This document shows, piece by piece, positions 14,838 through 50,531 of a stretch of DNA of 64,000 nt. Under the pieces are notes generated by a model, which worked only from the letters and a program-made list of their open reading frames with translations, made no database searches and was not told the origin of the DNA. The stretch spans positions 64,071,353 to 64,135,352 of the forward strand of contig NC_080175.1 of assembly GCF_950295315.1 (NCBI RefSeq), written 5' to 3'. This DNA is from Erinaceus europaeus. Its lineage: Eukaryota; Chordata; Mammalia; Eulipotyphla; Erinaceidae. A program made the position numbers and the translations under genes. Within the stretch, counting starts at the first letter, position 1, and the number at the start of each line of letters is the position of its first letter.

Positions 14838-15146
14838 TGTCGTTAAAGTTCAGGGCTCCAGCAGGCCAGGCTAGCTTCGAGGCTGTAAACAGAGATTCAG
14901 GGACACAGGGCTGGGCCAGGAAGTTGCATTTCTTTATTCACGAATGACGATTCATAAACTAACCCAAACTTATCACCACACAGATCTGTTCTGCAACCTT
15001 CTCCTCCGGCGGCCACGCCAAGAACTCCCGAACTCTGTAGGGGTTCTGGGGGTGGGGAGAAGGGCGCATGTGAAACTAGCAGGGGCCATACCACAATCTC
15101 CCAGAGGCTGGGGGGTGAGACCAAAACCAATGTGAAGTATACAACA
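14838..15146 (-). mobile_element. ERV LTR, minus strand, U5 end outward
   Basis: A 309-bp long terminal repeat. Read on the minus strand it starts TGTTGTATACTTCAC, has an AATAAA signal and ends ...ACGACA. It closely resembles the solo LTR at 46775-47067. A purine-rich tract precedes its start on the minus strand (15148-15165), which marks it as a 3' LTR. I see no viral gene. Class II (ERVK-like) is suggested by the TGTTG start and the 6-bp target duplication, and is inference. Confidence 0.85.
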
Positions 15147-15147
15147 A

Positions 15148-15165
15148 CTCCCCCTTTTCTTTTTA
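15148..15165 (-). other. Polypurine tract of minus ERV
   Basis: On the minus strand an A/G run ending in GGGGGAG lies directly before the LTR start, the usual place where plus-strand DNA synthesis is primed. The tract at 16223-16239 is its counterpart on the plus strand. Confidence 0.8.
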
Positions 15166-15181
15166 ACTAAATGACCATAGT

Positions 15182-15211
15182 TGTTGTATGCTTCACATTG
15201 GTTTTGGTCTC
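15182..15211 (+). mobile_element. Stub of LTR start, plus strand
   Basis: The first 30 bases of the same LTR family (TGTTGTATGCTTCAC...) occur here in plus orientation, only 35 bp from the start of the oppositely oriented LTR. The two starts form a 30-bp inverted repeat around the polypurine tract. The rest of the LTR is missing. Confidence 0.8.
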
Positions 15212-43601: not shown

Positions 43602-44563
43602 ACACACATATGTTTTTAAAGGCAGAATATATTTGTTACTAGTTGAATATGTAGTTAAAATAAAGTCGTTTTCTATTAAATGGATTATTAAAACACTAGC
43701 TGTGTTTGATATTCTATCTTCCTAAATGACAAGTTGAATTCTTATATTAATTTCCACCATAAACATCAAAATTTGAGTTCTTACTGGGTCAGGTATTGAG
43801 TTAGGTTCTATTTTTGTTCCTAAATATTATTCTGCTAAATATACACTATTCCTAATGTGTGTCTCAATTTTTTTTTAAGATTTTAGTTACATAACTCTTA
43901 TCTTTCCAGCAGTACATCCCATTAAGCCATGTTCATATCAGCTGTTAAATGTTCACCTTAACTTTTCTCTGTTACTTTATGTTCAGCTTCTCCACTTTAT
44001 CTGTGCCACACCAACATGGTAAAATACAGAGAAAGATAGCATTACTCTCTGGAGTGATTTCAAGCATTTCCCAGATCATGATTATGATAAATTATTCATA
44101 GACTATGTAGATTCATGCAGCAAAGGTATGGCTTTCTTAGCACAACATTTTGCTGAATCTTATGTCACACTGCCAAGTAAATACTTAAAGTTGAAGACTA
44201 GACCCTGGAGAGGAATGTAGGATCATATTATTTGCAAAATCTACAACAAGGTTTCAAGTGGGGAAATGGGTGGTGACTTCAAATGTATCATTTTTCCTTT
44301 GATGTTGCTTATATTTGTATTTAGTTTATGTCAAAGACACAGTGAAACATTAGCTCTTAATTTTCAATGAATAAATATAGAAAATACTACTCTTTTTTCT
44401 TGTAAGGAAACAGATAAAATGTAACATTTTTTAATTCATTTGATTCCAAGATTTGTTTCTGTTTAAATGTCATTGAAACACTTCAAACACTTTTGGCCTT
44501 ACAGTTTGAAAATCTTCAACTGTAAGACAACTCAAGGAGATGTTCATTTAGTAATAGTTTGGT
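43602..44563. other. Unique AT-rich DNA, no gene seen
   Basis: No recognised repeat or coding frame; ends at the left edge of the large inverted repeat. Confidence 0.5.
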
Positions 44564-44590
44564 TACACATTTCAAGCTAGATCCATTGTT

Positions 44591-44593
<3 letters not shown>

Positions 44594-44631
<38 letters not shown>
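44594..44631. repeat. (AAT)n microsatellite in left arm
   Basis: About 12-13 AAT units. The matching tract in the right arm (50221-50257) is shorter and interrupted differently; it is the main difference between the arms. Confidence 0.95.
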
Positions 44632-44637
<6 letters not shown>

Positions 44638-44649
44638 CTTTAATTATTA

Positions 44650-44925
44650 TTATTTTGCCTCCAGTGTTACTGATAGGGCTTGGTGCCTGAACTACGTACA
44701 AATCCACTGTTCCTGGTGGTCATTTATTATATTTTATTGGATAGTACAGGAAGAAACTGAGAGGAGGAGGAGACAGAGATAGAGAAAGATAGATACCTAC
44801 AGACCTGTTTCTATACTTATGGAGCATCCTCCTTGTAGGTGGGGAGCAGAGGCTCAAACCCAGATACCTGAACTTCTAAGTATGTGCATTTAATCATGTG
44901 CACCACTGCCAGCTCCCCCCCACCC
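44650..44925 (-). mobile_element. Old long-tail SINE in left arm
   Basis: Minus strand: diverged head near 44925, CT-rich body and the 3' segment ending 'actggaggcaaa'. Its mirror copy is at about 49951-50226. Confidence 0.85.
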
Positions 44926-45082
44926 CCCAGTTCCTCACATTAATAGTAGTTGCTTCTTCATGTAAATGTCTTTGGCTGTCATCAGGAGAAAAAAAAGAAG
45001 CAGAAGCATTAAATTATCTTTTACAGTGTATTTTTATGTGCACAATCCTATACAGTTTTCATTTTAAGTTATGAGTACTAGG

Positions 45083-45290
45083 GCCAAATGGGGTGCACCT
45101 AGTTAATGTGTGCACACATTATAGTGTGTAAAGACCCAAGTTCAAGCCCTTTGTCTCCACATGTAGGAGGAAAGCTTCACAAGTGGTGAAGCAGGACTGC
45201 AGGTGTCTCTCTGTCTCTTTCCCTCTCTATCTCCTCCTCCTGTCTAAATGTCTCTATGTTTCTATCCAATAATATTGGATAATAATTAAT
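45083..45290 (+). mobile_element. ERI-related SINE in left arm
   Basis: Head 'ggggtgcacctagttaatgt', 'caagttcaagccctttg', CT-rich body. Its mirror copy is at about 49586-49793. Confidence 0.85.
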
Positions 45291-45854
45291 ATATATATAT
45301 ATGCACTTACATCTATAAGTACAACTTTTATTCCAGTCCAGTAGTTAAATTCTTTTGCATGATTAGATAAGTCAGGATTCTCAAATCGATGCTAACTACT
45401 CCACCAAATAGAAAACTTCTGAAAGTCTAGATTCTTATTGTCAAATAATTTTCTCAGCTATCTCTAGCTGTGTGGTAAAAGAGTAAGAAAAATGGTTTCT
45501 ATAAATTTTTGAGAATTGTGTTTATTTGTTAAATTTGTTAATTTATTTATAAATTGTGCAGTATGGTCCCTAACTAGAACATGAAAAGTCATAAACCGTC
45601 ACCAGTAACTCATCCCACCAAATTTTCAGAGACCACAGGTAGTAGAGGGGGGAAAACTGCTTTTCTGAGTAAACAAGAAGACACATTGATAATCGCTCTT
45701 AACACTTAGGAAAGACTAGTGAGTAAAAACGCATATATACAAGCACAACTACTTTAAAATATGTATTCCAAATTAGAGCGAAACAACGAAGTGCTGTTTT
45801 GTTAACTATTATTCTTATGGCTAAATGATAGCCAGTTGGGTTTGATAAAGAGGT

Positions 45855-46080
45855 CACAGGGCTGGGTGGTGACCCACCTGTTTGAGAGCACATGTTACAA
45901 TGCTCAAGGACCTGGGTTGGAGCCCCCTGTCCCCACCCGCAGTGGAAAAGCTTTGCGAGTGGTGAAGCAGTGCTGCAAATGTCTAATGTCTTTCCTCCTC
46001 TCTATCACCGCCCTCCCCCCTTCTCAAATTCTGGCTGTCTCTATCCAGTAACTAAATAATGATAATGTCAAAAAAAGTAA
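45855..46080 (+). mobile_element. ERI-related SINE in left arm
   Basis: Head 'gctgggtggtgacccacctg', 'ctgggttggagccccctgtc', CT-rich body. Short open frames over it occur unchanged in both arms but are SINE sequence, not genes. Its mirror copy is at about 48796-49021. Confidence 0.88.
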
Positions 46081-46774
46081 AAAGAGGTTACTACAGGAAT
46101 AAACAAATTAGTCTTGGTGATTCTGCAGAAATATCAAACTGTACAAGTGGCCAATTTTCAAAGGGAATTAATAACACACCTTGCACAGTGGATCAATTGT
46201 CATTGATACCAGTAGCATAGAAAGCCAAATCTGAAACAAGAGGCTTGTCTTGGCTCCAAATTTGCTTTTATTTTAAGGATGTCATGATTCCAATTTTGCA
46301 TTCATTGAATCCATGTCTAAGTAAATAATAATAAAAAAAAAAAAAACATCCCACAGGACAAGCAGGAAACAATATAGTGAAGTCTATAGAAAAGTTACTT
46401 AATACTGAAGATAGGTAGTAATTAATATTTTGTATTTACATATATATGGACATTGAAGACACAAGGACTATATGGAAAATGTTTATTTCATGCATGTATT
46501 TACTAGGTGATATGAAAGATCATAGCTAGATTTTATTTATCTGTTACATTAGCTTTATTTTTCTAAGATATACAATTCTATAATTCTCTTAAAATAAGTG
46601 TACATGAGACATGACCAGTAAAAAAAGAAACAGCCAAACAGTTCTCTTGGGGCAGTGGGCAGCAAATCAGTCTCATGATATGAAGAAGAAACAACCAAGA
46701 AAAAAAATAAAGGTAGAACTATACATAGAAATCATTTGTCTTTAATAAAAAAGTGTTATTACTTAATGATTTCA

Positions 46775-47067
46775 TGTTGTATGCTTCACATTGGTTTGGT
46801 CTCACTCTCCCCCTGCCAGGAGAATTGGTTTGGCCCTTGCTACTTTCGCAGGCCCTCTTTCTCCTATGCTAAGTAGTTCTGGAGTTCTTGGCGCTGCAGG
46901 AGAGGAGAAGGATGCAGGACAGATCTGTGTGATTAGTTTGGGTTAGTTTATAAATCATTGTTCGTGAATAAAGAAATACAGCTTCCCTGCCCAGCCTGTG
47001 TCCTAGAGTCTCTGTCTGCTGCCGCAAAGCTAGCCCAGCCTGCTGGAGCCCCCAAACATTAATGACA
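46775..47067 (+). mobile_element. Solo LTR at the arm junction, no target duplication
   Basis: A 293-bp LTR of the same family as 14838-15146: starts TGTTGTATGCTTCAC, has GAATAAAG, ends ...ATTAATGACA. The left flank is atttca and the right flank accatc, so the usual short duplication is missing. The left flank is the end of arm A and the right flank is the start of block B, which are not next to each other in the right copy. Hence the LTR lies on a rearrangement breakpoint. Confidence 0.88.
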
Positions 47068-47307
47068 ACCATCATCTAGATGTAGTTTCCAAATTCTAGG
47101 GTTTTTTTCTCCAAATATTAAAAACAGGTAACCAACAGTCAAGACAAACAGTTACCTAAGTGAATTAAATTTTTACATATAGAACACTGTCAGAATATAA
47201 TATATAACACAGGCTAATAGACAAATGCAGTTTTGTAACAGTTTTACCTACTTGAGAGCAAGAGGAACAGACCATTTTCAGTTACATTGTACACCAGTAT
47301 CTCAGCT
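47068..47307 (+). repeat. Block B, spacer copy
   Basis: This 240-bp block matches the reverse complement of 50289-50531 with about 10 substitutions and a small indel. It directly follows the LTR. I recognise no repeat family or reading frame in it. Confidence 0.9.
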
Positions 47308-47734
47308 AGACAATAGCCTTTAATTAGCATGTCCCCCTGCAAAATGGGAAGTGCTCTCAGAAGTCTTATGATAGCAATCAAGAAGTAGCAGGTGGACAGA
47401 AATCCTCCCTTGCTCAGACTAGAAACAACACTTCAGTGGTCACAGCAGAATAGGGGAAATAAGATAAATAAGATAAATGCTTAAAGAAGATGCATGTACC
47501 GGCTTCAATACTGTAATTAGACTGCATTCATGCTCCCCCTGATGCATTAATTACACTACTTCATGGTCCTTTCACCACTGTGCAAAAGCTATCATGATGT
47601 CCTAATAGAAAGTTAGCTATGATTTGTGTGCCCAACTCAGATGTCATTATAGTATGCCCACATATTTGTAGAACTCACAGTCTGTACTTATTAGCTCCTG
47701 GAGAAAAAATATGAAATATTAAAATTATTATTAG
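47308..47734. other. Spacer of inverted repeat, unique DNA
   Basis: Unassigned single-copy DNA in the loop between the arms, no coding frame seen. Confidence 0.5.
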
Positions 47735-48045
47735 GTATTTATTTATTTATTTATTTATTGCCACCAGGGTTATTTCTGGGACTCACTGCCAGCACTACAA
47801 ACCCACTATGACTCCTGATAGCCATGTTTTCCCTTTTTGTTTCTTTCAATTTCACTTGACAGTACAGAGAGAAAATAAGAGGGGAAAGTAGAGATACAGA
47901 GGGAGAGATAATGATAGACACCTGCAGACAGGCTTTCCAAGAGGTGAAGCTTTCCCCTTTCAGGTGGGGAGTAGGGATTTGAACCCAGTTTCTTAAGCAT
48001 AGTGATGTGTGTATTCAATCAGGTGCATCGTCGCCTGATATCCAC
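47735..48045 (-). mobile_element. Old long-tail SINE in spacer
   Basis: Minus strand: decayed head near 48045, 'gtttctt'-bearing box-B region, CT-rich body, and a 3' segment ending 'accctggtggcaataaataa'. It lies in the loop only and has no mirror copy. Confidence 0.8.
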
Positions 48046-48795
48046 ACCCTTTCATTACCTTAGTTATTTTTGTATTGTTTCTGCCACTGAGATTCATGTG
48101 TCTGAAATCATTAAGTAATAACACTTTTTTATTAAAGACAAATGATTTCTATGTATAGTTCTACCTTTATTTTTTTTCTTGGTTGTTTCTTCTTCATATC
48201 ATGAGACTGATTTGCTGCCCACTGCCCCAAGAGAACTGTTTGGCTGTTTCTTTTTTTACTGGTCATGTCTCATGTACACTTATTTTAAGAGAATTATAGA
48301 ATTGTATATCTTAGAAAAATAAAGCTAATGTAACAGATAAATAAAATCTAGCTATGATCTTTCATATCACCTAGTAAATACATGCATGAAATAAACATTT
48401 TCCATATAGTCCTTGTGTCTTCAATGTCCATATATATGTAAATACAAAATATTAATTACTACCTATCTTCAGTATTAAGTAACTTTTCTATAGACTTCAC
48501 TATATTGTTTCCTGCTTGTCCTGTGGGATGTTTTTTTTTTTTTATTATTATTTACTTAGACATGGATTCAATGAATGCAAAATTGGAATCATGACATCCT
48601 TAAAATAAAAGCAAATTTGGAGCCAAGACAAGCCTCTTGTTTCAGATTTGGCTTTCTATGCTACTGGTATCAATGACAATTGATCCACTGTGCAAGGTGT
48701 GTTATTAATTCCCTTTGAAAATTGGCCACTTGTACAGTTTGATATTTCTGCAGAATCACCAAGACTAATTTGTTTATTCCTGTAGTAACCTCTTT

Positions 48796-49021
48796 TTACT
48801 TTTTTTGACATTATCATTATTTAGTTACTGGATAGAGACAGCCAGAATTTGAGAAGGGGGGAGGGCGGTGATAGAGAGGAGGAAAGACATTAGACATTTG
48901 CAGCACTGCTTCACCACTCGCAAAGCTTTTCCACTGCGGGTGGGGACAGGGGGCTCCAACCCAGGTCCTTGAGCATTGTAACATGTGCTCTCAAACAGGT
49001 GGGTCACCACCCAGCCCTGTG
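48796..49021 (-). mobile_element. ERI-related SINE in right arm
   Basis: Mirror of the SINE at 45855-46080, identical over its translatable part. Confidence 0.88.
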
Positions 49022-49585
49022 ACCTCTTTATCAAACCCAACTGGCTATCATTTAGCCATAAGAATAATAGTTAACAAAACAGCACTTCGTTGTTTCGCTC
49101 TAATTTGGAATACATATTTTAAAGTAGTTGTGCTTGTATATATGCGTTTTTACTCACTAGTCTTTCCTAAGTGTTAAGAGCGATTATCAATGTGTCTTCT
49201 TGTTTACTCAGAAAAGCAGTTTTCCCCCCTCTACTACCTGTGGTCTCTGAAAATTTGGTGGGATGAGTTACTGGTGACGGTTTATGACTTTTCATGTTCT
49301 AGTTAGGGACCATACTGCACAATTTATAAATAAATTAACAAATTTAACAAATAAACACAATTCTCAAAAATTTATAGAAACCATTTTTCTTACTCTTTTA
49401 CCACACAGCTAGAGATAGCTGAGAAAATTATTTGACAATAAGAATCTAGACTTTCAGAAGTTTTCTATTTGGTGGAGTAGTTAGCATCGATTTGAGAATC
49501 CTGACTTATCTAATCATGCAAAAGAATTTAACTACTGGACTGGAATAAAAGTTGTACTTATAGATGTAAGTGCATATATATATAT

Positions 49586-49793
49586 ATTAATTATTATCCA
49601 ATATTATTGGATAGAAACATAGAGACATTTAGACAGGAGGAGGAGATAGAGAGGGAAAGAGACAGAGAGACACCTGCAGTCCTGCTTCACCACTTGTGAA
49701 GCTTTCCTCCTACATGTGGAGACAAAGGGCTTGAACTTGGGTCTTTACACACTATAATGTGTGCACACATTAACTAGGTGCACCCCATTTGGC
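49586..49793 (-). mobile_element. ERI-related SINE in right arm
   Basis: Mirror of the SINE at 45083-45290. Confidence 0.85.
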
Positions 49794-49950
49794 CCTAGTA
49801 CTCATAACTTAAAATGAAAACTGTATAGGATTGTGCACATAAAAATACACTGTAAAAGATAATTTAATGCTTCTGCTTCTTTTTTTTCTCCTGATGACAG
49901 CCAAAGACATTTACATGAAGAAGCAACTACTATTAATGTGAGGAACTGGG

Positions 49951-50226
49951 GGGTGGGGGGGAGCTGGCAGTGGTGCACATGATTAAATGCACATACTTAG
50001 AAGTTCAGGTATCTGGGTTTGAGCCTCTGCTCCCCACCTACAAGGAGGATGCTCCATAAGTATAGAAACAGGTCTGTAGGTATCTATCTTTCTCTATCTC
50101 TGTCTCCTCCTCCTCTCAGTTTCTTCCTGTACTATCCAATAAAATATAATAAATGACCACCAGGAACAGTGGATTTGTACGTAGTTCAGGCACCAAGCCC
50201 TATCAGTAACACTGGAGGCAAATAAT
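49951..50226 (+). mobile_element. Old long-tail SINE in right arm
   Basis: Mirror of the SINE at 44650-44925. Confidence 0.85.
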
Positions 50227-50288
50227 AATAATAAGTTTGATATTATTATTATTATTACAACAATGGATCTAGCTTGAAATGTGTAGCC

Positions 50289-50531
50289 AGCTGAGATAAT
50301 GGTGTACAATGTAACTGAAAATGGTCTGTTCCTCTTGCTCTCAAGTAGGTAAAACTGTTACAAAACTGCATCTGTCTATTGGCCTGTGTTATATATTATA
50401 TTCTGACAATGCTCTATATGTAAAAATTTAATTAACTTGGGTAACTGTTTGTCTTGACTGTTGGTTACCTGTTTTTAATATTTGGAGTAAAAACCCCTAG
50501 AATTTGGAAACTACATGTAGATGTAGATGGT
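50289..50531 (-). repeat. Block B', outside the right arm
   Basis: Inverted copy of 47068-47307. Here B' touches the outer end of arm A', whereas in the left copy B touches the inner end of A through the LTR. The order is therefore permuted. Confidence 0.9.

Follow-up and report, generated by a model that had tools for sequence, protein, structure and literature searches.

In the genome of Erinaceus europaeus we describe two inverted copies of a host segment whose block orders are circular permutations of each other, with a solo LTR seated to the base on the breakpoint of one copy. The locus lies in a window of 64,000 nt (the whole stretch of DNA that was analysed; contig NC_080175.1, positions 64,071,353 to 64,135,352). 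It is real, base-exact and unusual, and every one of its ingredients is already known. It is likely the fossil of a faulty viral integration that copied its target, an accident known in principle.

Layout of the locus and its joints

Self-BLAST and a repeat search of the window gave the plus-strand order X, A, LTR, B, C, reversed A (a), reversed B (b) and D, with the following features.

44560-46774, plus strand: block A, left copy (2,215 bp), the A arm of the inverted pair, holding three SINE-like pieces
46775-47067, plus strand: solo LTR (293 bp, TG...GACA) on the A/B joint, without a target-site duplication
47068-47307, plus strand: block B, left copy (240 bp)
47308-48102, no strand: spacer C between the copies, holding one SINE-like piece
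48103-50289, minus strand: block A, right copy, reversed; its inner edge is the counterpart of the left A end at the LTR
50289-50531, minus strand: block B, right copy, reversed, joined straight to A with a 1-bp overlap at 50289

The right copy reads B-A on the minus strand, the two blocks abutting (this 2.4-kb segment is called S below), and the left copy reads A-LTR-B; the one order is a circular permutation of the other. The earlier note, made from the letters alone, had described this permuted order with an LTR on the breakpoint, and self-BLAST together with a base-level comparison of the edges confirmed it. The alignment of the left copy to the reverse complement of the right, which the note had proposed, was run: 44560-46774 matched 50289-48103 reversed with 98.6% identity over 2,215 columns (E = 0.0), almost all of the loss being gaps in a TAA microsatellite, and the B query matched 50523-50289 reversed with 95.7% identity over 235 bp (E about 1e-107), so that neither match is due to chance. 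The same A arms were recovered by a separate repeat search of the window. The SINE-like pieces of the window resemble SINEs of hedgehogs.

Block A ends at 46774 and block B begins at 47068; both homologies stop at the LTR ends with zero spare bases. The left and right A are alike up to ...GATTTCA, after which the left copy continues with TGTTG (the LTR start) and the right copy with GACAC, and the B copies are alike from ACCATC onward, immediately after the terminal GACA of the LTR. The end of S thus precedes U3 and its start follows U5, base-exact, and a second copy of this host segment is present. At the right B-A joint (50289) a single T can be assigned to either block; this opening joint is nearly conservative, with a 1-bp overlap and one or a few bases changed. 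The closing joint (A end to B start) is filled by the 293-bp LTR, not by the short indel or microhomology alone that is looked for in circle-mediated duplication. Self-BLAST of the window found no LTR match at the outer joints 48102/48103 and 50531/50532, where LTRs would be looked for after LTR by LTR recombination in cis. In the right copy, a GACA identical to the last four LTR bases stands 3 bases upstream of B (such a match within 9 nt has a chance of about 2.5%); this may resemble the short homology of host-joined aberrant ends, a hint at best and possibly chance.

The two blocks differ in divergence. Over 44654-46774 (2,121 bp; right copy 48103-50222) the A arms show no substitution, and their sole difference is a 1-bp length change in a poly-A run between 441 and 1,679 identical bases. 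The identical tract ends at the TAA microsatellite on the outer edge of A (44590-44653 versus 50223-50262), which differs in length by nearly 30 bp; the first 94 bp of A hold two or three substitutions, depending on the alignment, plus the microsatellite indels. B and b differ by 10 substitutions in about 240 bp (about 4%), and a second count gave 11 in 241, one of them beyond the B end (K2P 0.047; Fisher p = 1e-11 versus A). If A and B were duplicated together, the absence of substitutions in A against about 4% in B implies that the A arms were equalised later or that A was copied again. Inverted arms are often equalised by gene conversion. Together, the arms 44654-46774 and 48103-50222 make up a small palindrome-like pair whose likeness would stem from gene conversion or from renewed copying.

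The earlier note had also named the possibility that B is a common dispersed repeat. This was checked and ruled out: B gave two matches in the 2.72-Gb genome, both in the window (the whole-assembly search passes over very common words and scores the best candidates only, here two of two), and none in sampled genomic stretches. Twenty 10-kb stretches were sampled, with 217 N among their 200,000 letters; together with the rest of the window they made 21 sequences. Among these, queries from the non-SINE parts of X, A, B and C matched nowhere, the D piece matched itself only and each of three SINE queries matched all 21 sequences. Repeats spanning the X-A, C-a and b-D joints, sought for polarity, gave no match in the same sample and window; a piece across the B-A joint matched twice, solely through 45 bp at 50190-50234 that are SINE-like in look.

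The joint LTR and its family

The joint LTR has the canonical ends of its family (TGTTG...GACA). Its flanking 6-mers, ATTTCA and ACCATC, are alike at one of six positions, which means that there is no target-site duplication. The claim of an LTR without duplication exactly on the closing joint was thus borne out, and the normal 6-bp duplication that would have spoken against it was looked for and is absent.

The family was sampled through 40 scored matches, the joint LTR among them, out of 4,319 genomic first-look candidates. A script sorted them into nine 3′ LTRs, seven 5′ LTRs and 24 solo LTRs; five of the 24 (L009, L019, L021, L026 and L033), each preceded by a purine-rich tract, were reclassed by eye as 3′ LTRs. 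A 6-bp target duplication (at least 5/6 alike) was present in 17 of the 19 apparent solo LTRs, the joint LTR counted, or in 17 of 20 if L026, the least clear reclassing, is taken as solo. Thirteen of the 17 have 6/6 and four have 5/6 identical positions, and 16 are in exact register, L031 being shifted by 3 in a repeat. The two solos without a duplication are L035 and the joint LTR, and the latter lacks what is usual for its family. At loci with flanks, the joint LTR again counted, seven of eight 3′ ends are GACA; the exception is L004, whose aligned 3′ end misses this motif by a few bases.

Besides the joint LTR, L035/L041 is the one apparent solo LTR of the sample that lacks a target duplication; 6.5 kb around it were examined, and its 3′ end is cut short. 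Self-matches of 69-83% in its surroundings are probably dispersed repeats. One of them is a 250-bp direct pair (79%) whose members stand away from the LTR ends, ∼1.1 kb ahead of the LTR and 0.3 kb behind it.

Within the window the joint LTR matches, besides itself, only at ∼15 kb (self-BLAST). There, a second LTR of the family (14838-15211, minus strand, about 76% alike) ends in GACA and is preceded by a polypurine-like tract; 35 bp further lies a 30-bp start of another LTR, head to head. The U3 end may border on internal viral sequence, in the manner of an autointegration or a rearranged copy. Elsewhere, the LTRs of three pairs (L002/L003, L008/L009 and L004/L022) start only 1.8-2.9 kb apart and have primer-site-like and polypurine-like flanks, as judged by eye for L009. 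Short and perhaps non-autonomous members therefore seem to exist in the family.

Origin of the permuted order

An independent LTR insertion at exactly the A/B joint has a chance of about 1 in 2,455, from the length of A plus B. The simpler reading is therefore that the LTR made the joint, and a later chance insertion is held unlikely. The same suggestion in the earlier note is supported by the base-exact edges and the missing target duplication.

We tentatively propose, as a possible explanation of the locus, an aberrant integration that duplicated S, followed by an inversion and a flip. Normally, the host bases between the two cut sites of an integration, a few bp, come to flank the provirus on both sides. 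The geometry of the joint looks like that of such a target duplication, with S of 2.4 kb in place of the few bp. The ancestral state would be a single S (B then A on the minus strand) between D and C, the right copy having presumably kept this order. A retrovirus of the LTR's family would have inserted in an aberrant way: the U3 end would be attached directly behind A and the U5 end directly in front of B, 2.4 kb upstream. S would then stand on both sides of the provirus (S-provirus-S), like a 2.4-kb target duplication instead of one of 6 bp. LTR by LTR recombination would have reduced the provirus to a solo LTR. Next, C together with one A would be inverted, the breaks falling at X/C and at a single B/A joint. 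With the A arms in inverted orientation, a flip between them would yield X-A-LTR-B-C-a-b-D, and gene conversion afterwards would keep these arms identical.

Enumeration of block orders is consistent with this course: starting at X-C-a-b-l-a-b-D, a single inversion and a single flip suffice for the observed order, and two routes exist, one using the A arms and the other the B copies. With C or the LTR reversed at the start, no solution within two inversions was found. The direct S-virus-S order is not the present one, which is A-LTR-B-C-a-b, and a later inversion must be assumed. Several points count against the aberrant-integration route. The inversion and the flip have no independent trace, and homogenised arms would hide the flip. 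Each end of the LTR seems complete, and truncation of aberrant ends is frequent, though not universal, in the portion of PMC5041404 at hand. The rarity of such integrations when the integrase is unimpaired (PMC5041404) and the possibility that long flanking repeats are pseudo-duplications (PMC5488345) weigh against it too. Models with a circle or with LTR exchange in trans leave the same junctions.

A circle of S, closed by the LTR or the provirus, could instead have been cut open at the B/A joint and have entered at X/C, 0.8 kb away from an intact S; its source would be an abortive integration or S by S recombination out of an S-LTR-S tandem. We regard this as possible and rather doubtful. 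One insertion of such a circle gives the observed order exactly, and it is the only such insertion found by the block enumeration. Circle-borne duplications are recognised by a permuted order of their blocks (PMC7450558 and PMC7188851, in the parts available), circles containing host DNA were recovered in the aberrant HIV integration experiments (PMC5041404, available sections), and the nearly conservative opening joint with its 1-bp overlap fits as well. Against this, an excision of the simple kind would have removed S from its donor site, where the right copy still stands intact, so the circle needs a sister chromatid, a homologue or S by S recombination from a tandem. An inverted re-entry 0.8 kb away is equally given by an inversion, and no exact short duplication was seen by eye at X/C.

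A circle is not required for the observed order, and because the new junctions are identical, the sequence of one genome cannot separate circle from tandem. That the tandem route stands slightly ahead is a judgement. Of the circle proposed in the earlier note, the permutation and the LTR without duplication on the closing joint stood, while the circle itself is not established, tandem with inversion and flip giving the same order and junctions. We hold it rather unlikely that retroviral ends joined 2.4 kb apart freed a host-virus circle that re-entered 0.8 kb away, which would make the locus a germline fossil of host DNA mobilised as a circle within one locus.

Unequal exchange between allelic LTRs (one before B, the other after A on the homologue) would produce S-LTR-S without outer LTRs, to be rearranged later or passed through a circle. 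This is unlikely: it accounts for two complete LTR ends without a target duplication, and the family is dispersed (40 matches scored of the 4,319 candidates), yet it requires two unfixed insertions of one family 2.4 kb apart, while the outer edges of the right copy are without an LTR and the nearest other match in the window is ∼15 kb away. Still less probable is that the left copy is the older, the right copy having come from A-B by template switching or a circle and the LTR having entered the A/B joint later by chance. Complex template switching can join blocks in any order and X-A and B-C could be ancestral, but the independent hit on one joint in about 2,455 bp would have to be combined with loss of the target duplication. 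An assembly artefact, with the A arms collapsed or copied by the assembler, could give arms without a substitution over 2,121 bp and is highly improbable given B copies that differ by about 4%, distinct flanks, long contigs (the largest seen 101-211 Mb, in a 2.72-Gb assembly of 1,172 contigs) and an LTR-edge coincidence that is not an assembler product.

Should the polarity assumed for the aberrant integration be confirmed, this kind of event, which the available part of PMC5041404 describes in cultured cells with inhibited or mutant integrase, would also have occurred in the germ line, and the 2.4-kb duplication would be about five times the longest putative HML-2 target duplication given in the part of PMC5488345 at hand. 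If the proposal is true, an LTR joint can seed further rearrangement, direct repeats becoming inverted arms that convert each other. A key for further searches would be solo LTRs that lack a short target duplication and are flanked by the opposite ends of a single nearby segment.

Comparison with known systems

In a weak search of the literature, judged from titles and the openings of abstracts, we noticed no LTR-closed permuted duplication. According to Hughes and Coffin (2001), solo LTRs without target duplications reportedly arise by recombination between different proviruses. As in those LTRs, unlike flanks mark a rearrangement here; unlike them, the present case has no second LTR left at the outer edges of the duplicated segment.

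Circle-borne segmental duplications share with our locus the change of block order (A-B/C-D to B-A/D-C) and the small changes at the opening joint (PMC7450558 and PMC7188851, available parts). The 16 circle-borne duplications of PMC7450558 range, in the text at hand, from 22 kb to 3.9 Mb and lie, within a chromosome, 0.09-58 Mb apart, and their resolved joints have gains or losses of 1-27 bp or homologies of 1-2 bp. In contrast, the hedgehog segment is 2.4 kb long, 0.8 kb separates its copies and the closing joint is occupied by an LTR.

Endogenous elements with long flanking duplications are known from HERV-K (HML-2), in which target duplications measure 111 and 250 bp and, putatively, 450 bp; the same source, in the part available, adds that long flanking repeats may be pseudo-duplications, derived from later recombination between older duplications (PMC5488345). 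The LTR family described here normally makes 6 bp; unlike the HML-2 cases, the duplication at this locus is about 2.4 kb and its copies are not in simple direct order.

The closest likeness drawn here is to the aberrant integrations of HIV-1 and ASLV vectors, for which we rely on the accessible portion of PMC5041404. Host DNA was most commonly duplicated at the aberrant end of HIV integrations, over hundreds or thousands of bp instead of 4-6 bp; short homology was usual at the host-joined aberrant ends, and the viral ends were often, not always, truncated. Inversions occurred there too, as did circular viral DNAs with host sequence between LTRs, which were ascribed to abortive integration. Such events are rare without an impaired integrase, as the untreated wild-type vector gave 0 aberrant versus 99 normal proviruses, and 0 of 85 in PBMCs (PMC5041404). 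Those cases come from cultured cells with inhibited or mutant integrase and often have one truncated end, whereas the hedgehog locus is a likely fossil in the germ line; neither end of its LTR looks truncated, and rearrangement and homogenisation would have followed.
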